The position numbers and the translations under genes were made by a program. From assembly GCA_021807675.1 (NCBI GenBank), contig JAKBCR010000009.1, positions 1 through 49,893 of the forward strand: a stretch of DNA of 49,893 bases, read 5' to 3'. Shown here piece by piece: positions 15,340-49,893 of this stretch. Numbering within the stretch: position 1 is the stretch's first letter; each line of letters begins with the position of its first letter. Below the pieces are notes generated by a model, which had not been told where the DNA came from, ran no database searches, and saw only the letters and a list, made by a program, of their open reading frames with translations. The DNA is from Pseudomonadota bacterium (GTDB lineage: Bacteria; Pseudomonadota; Gammaproteobacteria; Steroidobacterales; Steroidobacteraceae).

Positions 15340-15688
15340 GCGCCAGAGCCTCGGGTGTGCAAAGATACAGGACCTTCCGACCAGCGGCGCGGAAATTTGT
15401 GCAATCGCCTGCCGGTCGTTCTTGTAACCAATTGTCGCTCCGTGCCGCCAGAGGAGAGCTCGGGCACCTGCATCCTCCAGTGTCCACCCCACAGCGCGAT
15501 CATTGTTACGAGTTGCCAAGGCAGCGCTGGGCCGGGCAGGGTGCGCCGCATGCGTCGCACGGGTGGCCAGGGATGGACGCCCCGGAGCATTGCGCGCCGC
15601 ACGGACTGCGTAGCGCAATGCCCGGATCCAGCGCTCCTGAGTAGTTGTAAGCCGTGATGCGCGGCCTCGGCGCGGCAAATTCCCGCCG
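15340..15688. other. Intergenic region between miaE and the response regulator gene
   Basis: This 349-bp gap holds family-1 repeat copy A (15523-15636) and, between it and 15340, the presumptive leader of the leftward regulator operon. I could not identify a convincing -35/-10 pair there, and no small gene is supported. Confidence 0.5.
15523..15636 (-). repeat. Family-1 structured repeat, copy A (core only)
   Basis: The closing stem pairs AGCGCTGGGCCGGGC (15523-15537) with GCCCGGATCCAGCGCT (15620-15635). Between them are a GTGCG.CGCATGCG.CGCAC dyad, a GGGTGG segment and the arm pair GCATTGCGC/GCGCAATGC. Written in the sense of miaE (minus strand), the GCGCTGGATCC end is nearest the gene, 53 bp after its stop. 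The GCAAAAAG hairpin module of other copies is absent. Confidence 0.8.
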
Positions 15689-17230: not shown

Positions 17231-18421
17231 TCAGAGGTTACAGCACAGCCAAGCCGGCGGTAACTTCAGTCCGATCACCAGATCGGCCACATTGGTGCCG
17301 GTCGGGCCAGTGCGCACCAGCGCCTGCGCGGCGGCGAGCGCCGTGCCGGAGTCGGCCCGCGACAGATGATCGTCAGGGTCGAGTCCGGCCCGAGTCAGGC
17401 GCGCGCAGGTGTCGGCATCCACCAGGCCCCCGGCAGCATCGGTCGGGCCATCCGTCCCGTCAGTGCCCGCGGCAAGCAGCAGCAGCTGCGGATGGTCCGC
17501 GAGGAGCCGGGCGGCGGCGAGGGCGAGGTGTTGATTACGTCCCCCACGGCCCGGGTGCGGCGGCAGGCGCACCGTCGACTCCCCGCCCCAGACACGGACC
17601 TGCTTCTCGCCGAGCAGCAGCTCGCGGGTGAAGCGCTCGGCCAGGCACGTCGCGTCTCCTGCATAACGCTCACGGGCTGGTTCCACAGTCAGTCCCCGCA
17701 CCAATGCCGCCCTGGCGACACCCTGCACCGCCCGATCCACGGAGGCGATGACCTGGCGCTCGATGCGATCCGGGCCCCCGTGGGCCAGACCCAGCAGCCC
17801 GGAGCCGATCACCGCCGGGTCGTCCTCCGGCACGTCGGATATGAAGAGGGCCCGCGCCGCACGGCCGCCGAGCTGGGCTGCGAGGCGCCCACCCTTGATT
17901 CGCGAGAGACGGGAACGACTTGCGTTGAGCTCGCCGATCGGGACGCCCTCGGCAAGCCCCCGGACAGAGAGTCGCTCGAGCTCCTCGAGCGAGACGCCGG
18001 GCTCGAGCACCTCCACCAGACTCGAGGCGCCTCCGGAGATGAGAAAGAGCGGTGACACCGTCGATGGCAGATGGCTCACCCAGGCGAGGAGCCGCGCCCC
18101 CGCCGCGAGCGAGCGCTCGTCGGGGACCGGATGAGCGCTCTCGTAAGCTTCCACGCCGGCAAGCGAGAGGAGCTCCGGTGCGAGATGTCCGCTCTTCGTG
18201 ACGACCAACACGCGCTCGAGCGAGCGGCCCAGCGCATCGGCAGCCCCGAGTGCCATGGAGGCAGCCGCCTTGCCGACCGCGGCGGCCCAGACCGGCGCAC
18301 CGTTCCGTGCCGGTGGCCTCGCGAGCAGCGCTTCCCGCACGCAGCGCCGTCCCTCGACGCTGTCGAGCCCGGCCCGGAGCAGCTCGAGCAGGAGCGCGTG
18401 CCGCCTGTCGGCGGAGCTCAT
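17231..18421 (-). CDS. Glycerate 2-kinase (GckA/TtuD, MOFRL family)
   Basis: A 396-residue protein of the DUF4147-MOFRL family, which phosphorylates D-glycerate to 2-phosphoglycerate and was long annotated as hydroxypyruvate reductase. Characteristic stretches are VGKAAASMALGAADAL, FLISGGASSL, the SRLSRIKGGRLA segment, LFISDVPEDDPAVIGSG and the C-terminal GTDGTDGPTDAAGG. It is complete and in line with family length. It is first in the array glycerate kinase-Ser/Thr kinase-miaE. Confidence 0.9.
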   Translation of the reverse strand: MSSADRRHALLLELLRAGLDSVEGRRCVREALLARPPARNGAPVWAAAVGKAAASMALGAADALGRSLERVLVVTKSGHLAPELLSLAGVEAYESAHPVPDERSLAAGARLLAWVSHLPSTVSPLFLISGGASSLVEVLEPGVSLEELERLSVRGLAEGVPIGELNASRSRLSRIKGGRLAAQLGGRAARALFISDVPEDDPAVIGSGLLGLAHGGPDRIERQVIASVDRAVQGVARAALVRGLTVEPARERYAGDATCLAERFTRELLLGEKQVRVWGGESTVRLPPHPGRGGRNQHLALAAARLLADHPQLLLLAAGTDGTDGPTDAAGGLVDADTCARLTRAGLDPDDHLSRADSGTALAAAQALVRTGPTGTNVADLVIGLKLPPAWLCCNL

Positions 18422-18450
18422 CTTAGTTTCCCATCTTTGTGCGGCCCCGA

Positions 18451-18625
18451 ATCATGAAGCGGTACAACAGGGTGACCAGGCACACGGACGTGCCCCGCCG
18501 CCGCAGGGCGAGGCGGGGCTTTCAGCGAAGCACTGCTTCGCTCCGCCGAGCGAGCCGCGGGCAAAAAACCGCGCTTTTTGCTCGCGGCGCGCTGGGCCGG
18601 CCAGGAGGGCCGGATCCAGCGCTTC
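18451..18625 (-). repeat. Family-1 structured repeat, copy B (short core plus insert)
   Basis: The closing stem GCGCTGGGCCGGCC/GGCCGGATCCAGCGC spans a 5-nt loop only, so the three inner arms of full copies are missing. Next to it is the GCAAAAAACCGCGCTTTTTGC hairpin region (18561-18581) and a GGCAC/GTGCC hairpin near 18478. Compared with copy C it carries about 40 extra bases including the hairpin AGCGAAGCA/TGCTTCGCT. It forms a direct repeat with copy C; together they fill the 380-bp purF-glycerate kinase gap. Confidence 0.8.
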
Positions 18626-18660
18626 ATCCTGGTTCCCCATCGACCGGTGGTCGACCCCGA

Positions 18661-18798
18661 AACCATGAAGCGGCACGAACCCGGTGACCAGGCACACGGA
18701 CGTGCCCCGCCGCCGCAGGTGGCGGAGCCGCGGGCAAAAAACCGCGCTTTTTGCTCGCGGCGCGCTGGGCCGGCCAGGAGGGCCGGATCCAGCGCTTC
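18661..18798 (-). repeat. Family-1 structured repeat, copy C (directly after purF)
   Basis: Nearly identical to copy B without its insert. In the purF sense it begins GAAGCGCTGGATCC exactly 3 nt after the TGA. On that strand the segment CCGCG-AGCAAAAAG-CGCGG followed by six T residues is a canonical intrinsic-terminator shape, so this copy probably ends purF transcription. Confidence 0.85.
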
Positions 18799-18801
18799 AA
18801 A

Positions 18802-20307
18802 TCAAGAGGCGCGGATCACCTTGAGCCGCCGCCGCCCGCCGCTCAGCTTCTTCGCCTCGTCCGAGCGCTCGAGCTGCAGCCGCTCCAGGTACTCCGGGGT
18901 CACATCGCCGGTGACATACTCGCCGGAGAAACAGGAGGTATCGAAGTCCTCGATGCGCGCATCCTCGTGCTTGCAGGCAGCGATCAGGTCCTCGAGGTCC
19001 TGATAGATCAGCCAGTCGGCACCGATGAGCCGCGCCACCTCATCGACGCGCCGTCCGCTCGCGACGAGCTCGCGCGCAGCCGGCATGTCGATGCCGTAGA
19101 CGTTGGGAAAGCGCACCGGCGGCGCCGCGGAGGCGAAATAGACCTTGCGCGCGCCGGCCTCGCGCGCAAGCTCGATGATCTGCGCGGAGGTCGTGCCGCG
19201 CACGATGGAGTCATCGACCAGCAGCACGTTCTTGCCGCGGAACTCCAGGTCGATGGCATTGAGCTTGCGGCGCACCGACTTCTGGCGCTCCTCCTGGCCC
19301 GGCATGATGAAGGTGCGGCCGATGTAACGGTTCTTGATGAAGCCTTCCCGGTACTTGAGCCCGAGCCGCTGCGCGAGCTGCAAGGCGCTCGTCCGGCTGG
19401 TGTCCGGAATCGGAATCACGACGTCGATGTCGTGGTTCGCGCGCTCGCGCAGGATCTTCTCCGCCAGCCGGTCGCCCATGCGCATGCGCGCGCGATACAC
19501 GGAGATGTTGTCGATCTTCGAGTCCGGGCGGGCGAAATAGACGTACTCGAATATGCAGGGAGTATGGCGCACGCTCACCACGCATTGATGCGAATGCAGC
19601 CGCCCGCCCTCGTCGATGAACACGGCCTCGCCCGGGGCGATGTCGCGCACCATGCGGAAGGAGAGGCTGTCGAGTGCGACGCTCTCCGAGGCGAGCATCC
19701 ACTCCGGCCCGCGCGGGGTATCGCGCTGCCCGAGGACGAGAGGACGGATGCCGTTGGGATCGCGAAAGCCGAGAATACCGTGCCCGATGACCATCGCGAC
19801 CACGGCGTAGCCGCCGCGGCAGCGGCGATAGACCGCGTTCAGCGCCGCAAACACGTCGGCCGGAGTGATGCGCGGAGTGCCTATGCGTTGCAGCTCAGAG
19901 GCGAAAACATTCAGCAGCACCTCCGAGTCGGAAGTCGTATTGAGATGCCGCCGGTCCTCACGGATCAGCACCTCGGCGAGCTCCGTGGCGTTGGTGAGGT
20001 TGCCGTTGTGCGCGAGGCAGATGCCGTAGGGCGAGTTGACGTAGAACGGCTGCGCTTCCGAGGCGCTCTCGCAGCCCGCCGTGGGATAGCGGACGTGGCC
20101 GATGCCGGCATTTCCCTTCAGCTCGAGCATGTGCTGTTGCTGGAAGACATCACGCACGAGCCCGCGGCCCTTTCGCACGCAGAGCCCCCCGTCTCCGTAG
20201 GTCGCGATGCCGGCGGCATCCTGGCCGCGATGCTGCAGCACCGTCAGCGCATCATAAATGCGCTGGTGCACCGCGCTCGTTCCGAGGACACCGACGATTC
20301 CGCACAT
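18802..20307 (-). CDS. purF: Amidophosphoribosyltransferase
   Basis: First committed enzyme of purine synthesis (PRPP plus glutamine to phosphoribosylamine). The N-terminal nucleophile Cys2 is in MCGIVGV, with no propeptide. The class II glutaminase domain shows HNGNLTN and DSEVLL; the PRTase domain shows the PRPP loop [14 protein letters not shown]. Length is 501 residues, as in E. coli. It starts 4 bp after the cvpA stop, the usual cvpA-purF operon. The stop is followed by repeat copies C and B. Confidence 0.96.
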
Positions 20308-45730: not shown

Positions 45731-45915
45731 AGGCACAGGGAGGTGCCCGCCGCCGCGGGCGGCGAGCGGCGAGCAAAAAGTCACACCTTTTGCTCGCCGC
45801 CGCGCTGGGCCGGGCAGGGTGCGACGCAGGCGTCGCACGGGTGGCTACGGATGGCCACCCCGGAGCTTTGCGCGTAGCAGGGACTGCGCAGCGCAAAGCC
45901 CGGATCCAGCGCTTC
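45731..45915 (-). repeat. Family-1 structured repeat, copy D (full, after rubrerythrin)
   Basis: The most complete copy. In the rubrerythrin sense it starts GAAGCGCTGGATCC 3 nt after the TAG. Inside a closing stem GCGCTGGATCCGGGC/GCCCGGCCCAGCGC are three hairpins: GCTTTGCGC/GCGCAAAGC, GGGTGGC/GCCACCC and GTGCGACGC/GCGTCGCAC. Downstream modules are GGCGAGCAAAAG/CTTTTTGCTCGCC and GGGCAC/GTGCC. It fills most of the rubrerythrin to Fe-S protein gap. Confidence 0.88.
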
Positions 45916-45918
45916 AAA

Positions 45919-46332
45919 CTAGACCCCTTCGAGAGCCTTCTGGAAGCGATTGGCGTGCGAGCGCTCCGCCTTGGCCAGGGTCTCGAACCAGTCGGCGATC
46001 TCACCGAAGCCTTCGTCGCGCGCCTGCTTCGCCATCCCCGGATACATGTCCGTGTACTCGTGGGTCTCGCCGGCGATGGCCGCCTTGAGATTGAGCTTCG
46101 TATCACCGATCGGCAGTCCGGTGGCCGGGTCGCCTACCGCCTCGAGATACTCGAGGTGGCCATGCGCGTGACCAGTCTCACCTTCCGCTGTCGAGCGGAA
46201 AACGGCCGACACGTCGTTGAATCCCTCCACGTCCGCTTTGGCTGCGAAATAAAGATATCGGCGGTTCGCCTGAGACTCGCCCGCAAACGCGTCTTTCAGG
46301 TTTTTCTCGGTCTTGCTGCCTTTGAGGTTCAT
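45919..46332 (-). CDS. Rubrerythrin (erythrin type, no rubredoxin domain)
   Basis: A 137-residue four-helix di-iron protein. Glutamate ligands are in [35 protein letters not shown] and [10 protein letters not shown], including the ExxH pairs. The C-terminal rubredoxin domain of classical rubrerythrin is absent, so electrons must come from a partner, plausibly the adjacent Fe-S protein. Family members reduce hydrogen peroxide. ATG at 46332 has AGGAGA 8 bp upstream. The gene has its own promoter and a palindrome just before the ribosome site. Confidence 0.92.
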
Positions 46333-48923: not shown

Positions 48924-49760
48924 ATGACTCCACCCCCCGCCAACGTCAAGCTCGCGCGAGCCACCCTGGCCGAAGTCGAGGATGTCCAGGGCCGCGCCGA
49001 TACCCGCCGGCTGCCCATCAATCGTGTCGGCGTCAAGGACATCAGTCATCCCGTGCGCGTGAAGGACCGCTCCGCCGGCGAGCAGCACACCATCGCCACC
49101 TTCAACATGTACGTCAGCCTGCCGCACAACTTCAAAGGCACGCACATGTCCCGCTTCGTCGAGATCCTGCAGACCGAGCGCGAGATCTCCGTCGAGTCCT
49201 TCCGCGGGATGCTGGCGACCATGACCGACCGTCTCGAGGCCGACACCGGCCACATCGAGATGAGCTTCCCGTTCTTCGTGATGAAGCGCGCACCGGTCTC
49301 CGGCGTGGAGAGCCTGATGGACTATCGCGCCAGCCTCATTGGCGAGCGCCGCAACGGCCACACCGACATGTGGGTGAAGGTGGTGGTCCCCGCGACCAGC
49401 CTCTGCCCGTGCTCCAAGCGCATCTCCGCCTATGGCGCGCACAACCAGCGCTCGCACGTGACCATCACCGCGCGACTGCGCCACCACATCTGGATCGAGG
49501 AGCTCATCGAGATCGCCGAGAGCGAGGCCTCATGCGAGCTCTACGGGATCCTGAAGCGTCCCGACGAGAAGTACGTTACCGAGCGCGCCTACGACAACCC
49601 GAAGTTCGTCGAGGACATGGTGCGGGACGTCGCCACCCGGCTCAACGCGGACGATCGGATCGCGGCATACGTGGTGGAATCGGAAAACTTCGAGTCCATT
49701 CACAACCATTCAGCGTACGCGCTCATCGAGCGGGACAAGGACGCCGACAAGCCGTTCTAG
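48924..49760 (+). CDS. folE2: GTP cyclohydrolase FolE2 (type IB)
   Basis: A 278-residue enzyme of the GCYH-IB family that converts GTP to dihydroneopterin triphosphate, first step of folate synthesis. The family motifs are [13 protein letters not shown] at the N-terminus, [21 protein letters not shown] with the active-site Cys, and [14 protein letters not shown] at the C-terminus. Unlike zinc-dependent FolE it can use other metals, and in some bacteria it is induced under zinc limitation. It follows dxs by 89 bp, with a palindrome between them. Confidence 0.95.
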
Positions 49761-49763
49761 TAT

Positions 49764-49893
49764 GAAGCGCCGGATCCGGGCATTGCGCTGCGCAGTCCCT
49801 GCTCCGCGCAAGCCCGGGGTGTCCCTCCATGGCCACCCGTGCGACGCATGCGTCGCACCCTGCCCGGCCCAGCGCCGTTGCGGCAAAAAGCGC
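49764..49893 (+). repeat. Family-1 structured repeat, copy E (after folE2, cut by window end)
   Basis: Starts GAAGCGCCGGATCCGGGC 3 nt after the folE2 TAG and closes with GCCCGGCCCAGCGC (49862-49875). The inner GCGACGCATGCGTCGC palindrome is perfect. The GCAAAAAGCGC at the edge is the start of the next module. It is on the plus strand, the opposite of copies A-D, because folE2 is a plus-strand gene. Confidence 0.85.

Follow-up and report, generated by a model that had tools for sequence, protein, structure and literature searches.

Modular palindromic repeats with CTAG-like ends and stop-codon placement in Steroidobacteraceae: a candidate non-autonomous mobile element

Within the 49,893 nucleotides analysed here (contig JAKBCR010000009.1 of a gammaproteobacterium of the Steroidobacteraceae; the whole stretch is hereafter termed the window), five related, structured repeats raise the question of what kind of element they represent, how they are dispersed and what maintains their paired arms. 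The original prediction held that all five share a closing stem, that full copies enclose three further hairpins and that changes in the arms are compensated. The five elements lie where they were predicted (Table 1), the closing stem is seen in the sequence and the compensated arms, GCATTGCGC/GCGCAATGC against GCTTTGCGC/GCGCAAAGC, can be read directly from it, whilst a 124-nt core is 86% identical between positions 15521-15644 and 45799-45922. Three inner hairpins are present in three of the five copies (15.5, 45.8 and 49.8 kb), the last of which is incomplete, running off the contig end; the tandem pair at 18.4-18.8 kb does not fit this description, hairpin A there closing on a short loop, with B, C and D after it. 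The unit also extends beyond the closing stem, the left end of the 45.8-kb copy lying at 45922. The repeats are real, not an artefact, and form a new family; the original prediction missed their CTAG-like ends, their placement at stop codons and the differing hairpin sets found at one orthologous site.

Table 1. Element copies, cassettes and adjoining genes in the window.
Feature	Position	Strand	Basis
Element copy truncated after hairpin A (without hairpin B), cassette in loop A	15523..15636	-	
Three-hairpin cassette	15538..15618	-	nhmmer match
Gene Y (DUF4147/MOFRL), starts right after tandem unit 2	17231..18421	-	Pfam and gene caller
Tandem unit 2: hairpins A, B, longer C variant, D, right end GATGGGAAACTAAG	18426..18632	-	R1 match 18479-18625
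Tandem unit 1: hairpins A (without cassette), B, C, D, right end ...GATGGGGAAC	18629..18801	-	R1 match 18691-18798
Gene X, amidotransferase/phosphoribosyltransferase domains; cross-species locus	18802..20307	-	Pfam
Noted element: CTAG - TTTGAAGC - hairpin A with cassette - B - C - D	45731..45922	-	R1 match to B-D 45732-45834
Three-hairpin cassette in loop A	45816..45897	-	Cassette match and folding
Rubrerythrin gene, stop TAG within element's left CTAG; cross-species locus	45919..46332	-	Pfam PF02915
folE2 (GCHY-1) gene, stop TAG within element's CTAG	48924..49760	+	Pfam and gene caller
Element ended by contig end: CTAGTATGAAGC, hairpin A with cassette, start of B	49757..49893	+	
Three-hairpin cassette	49783..49861	+	nhmmer match

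The repeating unit spans about 110-190 bp and comprises a CTAG-like site, the hexamer TGAAGC and hairpins A, B (with variable arms), C and D; many copies also carry a right end, ...GTCGATGGGGAA-CTAG, and many others end after hairpin D. In a consensus built from 26 long copies for the full length and 113 for the left border, the conserved stretch runs from about CTAGTATGAAGC to GATGGGGAACTAG and drops off on either side, with conservation starting near CTAGTAT-GAAGC and ending after ATGGGNAACTAG. The arms of hairpin A are GCGCTGGATCCGGGC and GCCCGGCCCAGCGC, those of C are CCGCC and GGCGG and those of D are GGCAC and GTGCC, whilst hairpin B combines its variable arms with CAAAAAGCG.GGTTTTTG and hairpin D is followed by GCCGCTTCATGATTCGGGGTCGAC..GTCGATGGGGAACTAG. 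A right-end inverted repeat, GTCGAC..GTCGA, is present in the consensus (read from the letters). The consensus has no terminal inverted repeats, just the pair ATGAAGC/GCTTCAT, located well inside the right end, and the palindromic CTAG, apart from which the left and right ends differ in sequence. The site of the three-hairpin cassette varies, being the loop of A in the window copies and the loop of D at L051, L052 and L065, and at L029 the cassette connects A's left arm with D's right end. The predicted cloverleaf is an optional three-hairpin cassette of a modular element, not its basic architecture. Extra short hairpins (e.g. CGCCGAAGCGGCT) occur in the loop of hairpin B at L108:3607-3725, L131:2808-2925 and L293. 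An automated listing of loop inserts, in which 31 of 82 own loops were scored 'not closed', was too crude to give more than examples. Another repeat family, CGATTTTGG...GGCCCCGAAGGGGCGAGGCCCAGGA, with other hairpins, is found at L066:13860-13940, L069:8015-8058, L078:5936-6021 and L024 near 640-700, and adjoins or sits inside elements of the present family in L024, L066 and L067. Two elements in inverted arrangement are also observed in genome G065 (L285 near 2433-2680).

Exact GCTGGATCCGGGC sites number 87 in the 5.11-Mb genome to which the window belongs, the reversed-pattern control giving 0. A covariance model (R1), derived from 18 simple copies in six genomes and having 107 model positions, returned at least 136 matches in this genome at E<=0.01 (among the best 150 of 7658 candidates scored), of which at least one is an antisense duplicate; R1 may also miss copies without hairpin B, and copies at contig ends are possibly merged. 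The window holds three of the 136 matches, about twice the genome mean. Searching the genome and its relatives with covariance models thus uncovered further copies in both, as anticipated, although the forecast of hundreds per genome exceeds the 87 exact sites and at least 136 model matches found. Within the genus, 21 of 58 genomes (own included) are matched at E<=0.001, with from 1 to at least 67 matches each, and 37 of the 58 have no model match under stricter filters. In a sample of the order, 12 of 296 genomes (own included), representing 3 of 68 genera, are matched at E<=1e-6, and under the stricter filters all order-wide matches fall within the window's own family. True copies, among the matches listed, lie in metagenome genomes titled Proteobacteria or Gammaproteobacteria bacterium and in one titled Steroidobacteraceae bacterium; many listed matches in other phyla are due to chance and lack the element. 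Plasmids and phages gave no match in a distant DNA search (one query each). In Rfam searches of the window, just four tRNAs scored above the gathering score, none of them on the elements, and the elements of L035, L066 and L187 were likewise without a match, which rules out a known Rfam RNA family for these copies; the best weak match at 45.6-46.05 kb has an E value of 0.85. A c-di-GMP-I-GGC riboswitch (Rfam RF03167) is located at L066:5121-5205. At least 15 contigs carry a copy in their first 150 nt, those of G000 being C19, C48, C83, C101, C119, C125, C140, C152, C189, C213, C216, C312, C390, C403 and C414. With copies at so many contig starts, the assembly is probably interrupted by the element and the copy count probably in error.

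The elements are often placed at the ends of genes. In the window, the TAG of the left CTAG of the 45.8-kb element is the rubrerythrin stop and the TAG in CTAGTATGAAGC of the 49.8-kb element is the folE2 stop, whilst tandem unit 1 starts directly 3' of the gene X stop codon and the right end of tandem unit 2 directly precedes the ATG of gene Y. With genes called by a simple codon-usage caller, not from annotation, the left-hand gene of usable elements lies on the same strand in 35 of 51 cases in our genome and in 40 of 55 in the other genomes (75 of 106 overall, p 2e-5); the distance from its stop on to GCGC is 0-9 nt for 25 of the 35 and -1 to 9 nt for 34 of the 40. Counted from GCTGG, a stop triplet occupies offsets -11 to -9 in 56 of 156 left ends, with stop counts of at most 12 at other offsets between -30 and -7 and the element's own TGA at -6 in 91. 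A same-strand stop lies within 30 nt of the left end in 62 of 132 arrays and is absent in 70. At the commonest stop distance, the stop is TAG in 21 of 25 cases and sits within CTAG in 17 of 25, as against 72 and 16, respectively, of 290 sampled genes (Fisher 6e-9 for TAG, 2e-13 for CTAG). The left 4-mer reads CTAG in 30 of 134 arrays, as does the right one in 11 of 34, over a background of 0.0002 per base; CTAG is absent at 104 of 134 left ends, and therefore the target is loose or the ends decay. Of the right ends followed by another gene (n=31), four overlap a convergent gene's TAG. The frequency of CTAG is 0.21 per kb, and 42 of 88 sites lie inside called gene bodies, which make up about 90% of the sample. 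We read the target as a CTAG-like site that would be met often at TAG stops.

Further detail of the ends comes from individual copies. A pair of own copies shares an identical 116-nt sequence starting at TGAAGC but has different left flanks, each closing with CTAG and two bases that vary within the pair; on this single pair, the element itself would appear to start at TGAAGC, and CTAG to belong to the target. At locus X (the gene X junction), the tetramers are TTGA on the left and CTAA on the right, and in a candidate nested insertion (L066, one case) four other copies of the invaded repeat read CCCAGGA, not CTAG. Left and right 7-mers agree at 2.94 of 7 positions compared with 3.02 of 7 in shuffled pairs (34 arrays), a comparison in which a constant CTAG target would mask a duplication of CTAG. 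A full unit at L185 is preceded (near 1425-1460) by the remnant of a right end, which itself abuts the TGA stop of a gene.

Three element sites were compared across species. Locus X (window 18.4-18.8 kb) is occupied in 3 of 30 loci and lacks the element in 27 (by eye): our genome has two tandem units, G065 one unit with a cassette and G080 a shrunken unit, R1 at the junction having matched the own and G065 copies and missed that of G080. The gene X protein ends at the same codon in our genome, G065 and G032 and one codon earlier in G080; in G032 (94% identity) the stop is TAA, an ATG lies one base later and the reading frame appears shortened. At the rubrerythrin site, an element is found within about 25 nt after the stop in 6 of 30 loci (by eye), R1 matches the same six at E<=0.1 and the proteins end at the same codon in 30 of 30. 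Loop A of this element is bare in G032, G065, G079 and G080 and contains one cassette hairpin in G035 and three in our genome, whilst in G079 loop B holds an additional hairpin. G065 and G080 seem to have a broken hairpin B and G035 an imperfect one (these features all read by eye). The simplest account is a single ancestral insertion, the alternative being repeated insertion. In L288, L290, L294, L298 and L304, a different GC-rich hairpin stands right after the rubrerythrin stop and the element is absent (by eye). At the third locus (L053), the element occurs in our genome alone, according to a string test and R1 at the junction; third-locus R1 matches elsewhere, in L330 and L342, have E values of 6e-4 and 0.002. 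In G032 and G035 a TAG stop occupies the corresponding codon and no element was recognised, a short stretch in G032 being a possible remnant. Since two of the three compared loci are shared between species, some copies are old and inherited.

The predicted fold was examined as both RNA and DNA. As RNA, the 45.8- and 18.7-kb copies gave z values of -4.1 to -6.2 over both strands, and as DNA -5.3 and -4.7, with none of 200 dinucleotide shuffles as good in either form; the 15.5-kb copy as DNA gave -3.3, a value reached by 2 of 200 shuffles, and its minimum-energy fold differs from the three-hairpin one. Covariation was scored in two alignments. A1 contains 18 of the 21 distinct simple copies, a near-repeat and a pair with inserts in their loops having been omitted. 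Since these copies were picked by patterns in hairpins A, C and D, the choice itself accounts in part for the invariance of A and C. A5 contains 15 of 23 cassette copies, omitting those with an extra hairpin or with cut or rearranged ends. In A1, both sides of hairpin B change in 10 of 14 pairs, and the score over all 37 pairs is 0.207 compared with 0.060 shuffled (reached by 0 of 500) and 0.027-0.040 for slid partners, whilst in A5 both sides change in 8 of 27 pairs (reached by 2 of 500 shuffles) and the score is 0.140 compared with 0.070 (0 of 500), counts that are not probabilities, the shuffles keeping the relatedness of copies whose events are fewer than the cells recording them. Covariation exceeds the shuffles and all slid controls and further copies exist, and neither outcome named as refuting the original prediction arose, with the reserve that relatedness persists in the shuffles. 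The outer eight bases of hairpin B are perfectly complementary in 49 of 80 pattern-caught copies, in ten types. RNA under selection would favour G.U on its own strand. Among non-Watson-Crick cells, G.T and A.C occur 49 times each in 85 own rows, and 36 and 34 times, respectively, in 62 rows from other genomes, a symmetry that therefore leaves nothing to favour RNA read from one strand. It points to DNA, to equivalence of the two strands, to plain decay or to a palindrome-restoring copying process. Dispersal, structure and paired changes were thus correctly foreseen; selection on an RNA fold was not borne out.

The same symmetry weighs on the proposal that these are functional 3'-end RNA structures, in which post-stop hairpins protect mRNA ends or tune termination and are kept by selection, since G.U is not above A.C on either strand. 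The frequency of same-strand left neighbours given above and the strong fold favour this proposal, as does the occurrence of other GC-rich hairpins after the rubrerythrin stop in several species without the element. Terminator-like sites in hairpin B of both 18-kb units also speak for it, but they lie on the strand opposite to the upstream gene: between 15.0 and 19.5 kb four such sites were found (1.5 in shuffles), including the two opposite-strand ones in hairpin B, and between 45.0 and 49.9 kb one compared with 2.2, none in an element, so the 45.8- and 49.8-kb copies have none. (The hairpin B matches, a stem then CTTTTTGC, lie at 18556-18573 and 18729-18746 on the + strand.) Against it stand also the apparently broken or imperfect hairpin B of G065, G080 and G035 at the rubrerythrin site, the right ends that abut convergent stops, the locus X relatives without an element (L233 and L236), in which the next ATG lies a few bases past the stop, and the 37 genus genomes without a model match. 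We regard an RNA function of this kind as unlikely.

Two further models concern how copies arise. A REP/PATE-type element could be moved as single-stranded DNA by a Y1 transposase (IS200/IS605 or RAYT), a model that accommodates the subterminal hairpins, the tetranucleotide adjoining the left hairpin and the lack of both long terminal inverted repeats and visible duplication, and G065, which is element-rich, has an intact Y1 gene. However, the one Y1 gene (PF01797) of our genome, IS200-like by our reading, is broken (L061 near 2076-2437), and the 3.7-kb stretch around it contains none of the seven element motifs searched; PF01797 has no match in element-rich G032, G035, G070, G076 and G080 (completeness 97, 73, 96, 86 and 82%), and the tag GTAG is found in just 3 of 134 left ends. 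A Y1/RAYT enzyme was rejected as general mobiliser on the basis of these five rich genomes, three of them 73-86% complete, and the model as a whole is distinctly improbable. The search for a partner extended to the element ends. Compared by eye with the element list, our genome's 34 right ends comprise 30 that adjoin element bodies, three at contig starts (C34, C326 and C356) and one, C338:2643, that is the remnant of a right end and immediately follows the stop of a gene. Distinct CTAGTNTGAAGC places examined (n=38) lead into hairpin A in 32 cases and are variants or remnants in six; a listing of left-end places in six genomes gave 48, part of which were examined. No gene lies between element ends at the right ends or left-end places examined, and no parent IS with the same ends was found among the 34 right ends (the three at contig starts being unjudgeable) or the 38 left-end places. 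Growth without transposition, whereby hairpins grow, multiply and self-correct in place through replication template switching and gene conversion accounts for their likeness, would be in keeping with hairpin sets that differ at one orthologous site, with the ten arm types of perfect complementarity seen in 80 copies and with the existence of both shrunken and enlarged copies. The identical 116 nt with different flanks, the constant element ends and the own-specific array at the third locus all suggest instead a copy-and-insert step, and we hold purely local growth to be very improbable.

We favour, with a probability of roughly 0.6, the interpretation that this family is a non-coding, non-autonomous, modular palindromic mobile element with CTAG-like targets that is spread in trans. 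The observations behind it are dispersed copies with defined ends, placement at CTAG and stop codons, presence or absence at one site, differing modules and covariation. A candidate enzyme would recognise hairpin-bearing ends, namely TGAAGC-hairpin A on the left and GTCGAC..GTCGA-TGGGGAA on the right, and would insert the element at CTAG-like sites. Since CTAG has a low frequency in this GC-rich genome, and a far lower one within genes, tolerated sites would often be TAG stops, where insertion would leave protein ends intact. As a CTAG-like site is found at both ends, a further copy could land alongside, giving tandem arrays. Copies may acquire, lose and exchange modules (the three-hairpin cassette, extra loop B hairpins and the longer C) through recombination or template switching where hairpin loops match, and such exchange, as a putative cause of the paired changes, may also maintain arm complementarity. 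If this mobile-element interpretation is true, landing at stop codons would explain how more than 100 insertions are tolerated in a compact genome. The same site with zero, one or three extra hairpins across related species offers a natural series in which palindrome growth and maintenance can be traced stepwise. The element may also help to explain the poor assembly of such genomes, given the copies at contig starts, and the element-rich genomes narrow the search for the mobilising enzyme.

No description of this element was found in titles and abstract openings on REP, MITE, BOX, PATE and hairpin or palindrome elements, nor any literature pairing Steroidobacteraceae with REP. In organisation it appears closest to BOX elements and REP/BIME arrays. 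BOX elements of Streptococcus pneumoniae comprise boxA, boxB (absent or in several copies) and boxC; their mobiliser is only proposed and their terminal inverted repeats are likened to ISSpn2 (PMC3049150). BOX is likewise a small, non-coding, interspersed modular repeat with a strong fold and slow turnover, a likeness of organisation alone; unlike BOX, the present element lacks terminal inverted repeats, nests modules in loops, has CTAG/stop ends and occupies unrelated hosts. REPs are 20-40 bp long, tagged GTAG or CGTC and linked to RAYTs (PMC3733652; PMC2817692). REP/BIME arrays share with our family high-copy extragenic palindromes, a tetranucleotide beside a hairpin and arrays, whereas the element measures 110-190 bp and has several hairpins and CTAG-like ends. 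Membership of REP/BIME is rejected on the left 4-mers (CTAG in 30 of 134, GTAG in 3 of 134) and on size (107 model positions plus ends compared with 20-40 bp). A RAYT partner is likewise rejected, our genome having the broken copy without adjoining elements and the five rich genomes, three of them 73-86% complete, having none.

ERIC, Correia and RUP are examples of MITEs. MITEs have terminal inverted repeats and target duplications (PMC3049150). The present element resembles them in being short, folded, dispersed and non-autonomous, its mobility in trans being putative; it is rejected as a standard MITE for the lack of terminal inverted repeats in its consensus. PATEs are linked to IS200/IS605. 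PATEs have palindromes near their ends and perhaps no target duplication, features that our element may share, hairpin A folding at its left end; it differs in that no Y1 partner was found and in its internal array of covarying modules. Mitochondrial double-hairpin elements and yeast GC clusters are mobile hairpins that multiply as modules, and the present element differs from these in its location in a bacterial chromosome, greater length, fixed ends and stop-codon placement. A bolder and tentative possibility is that the family represents a new class, a bacterial counterpart of the mitochondrial hairpin elements, in which hairpin units colonise the loops of other hairpins and land on CTAG at stop codons, an undescribed enzyme would recognise folded DNA and CTAG, and arms would stay complementary as one arm serves as the template for its partner at every move or repair. 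What seems new in comparison with the known systems is the nesting of covarying hairpin modules in loops, the placement at CTAG and stop codons, and a site at which the hairpin sets differ between species.
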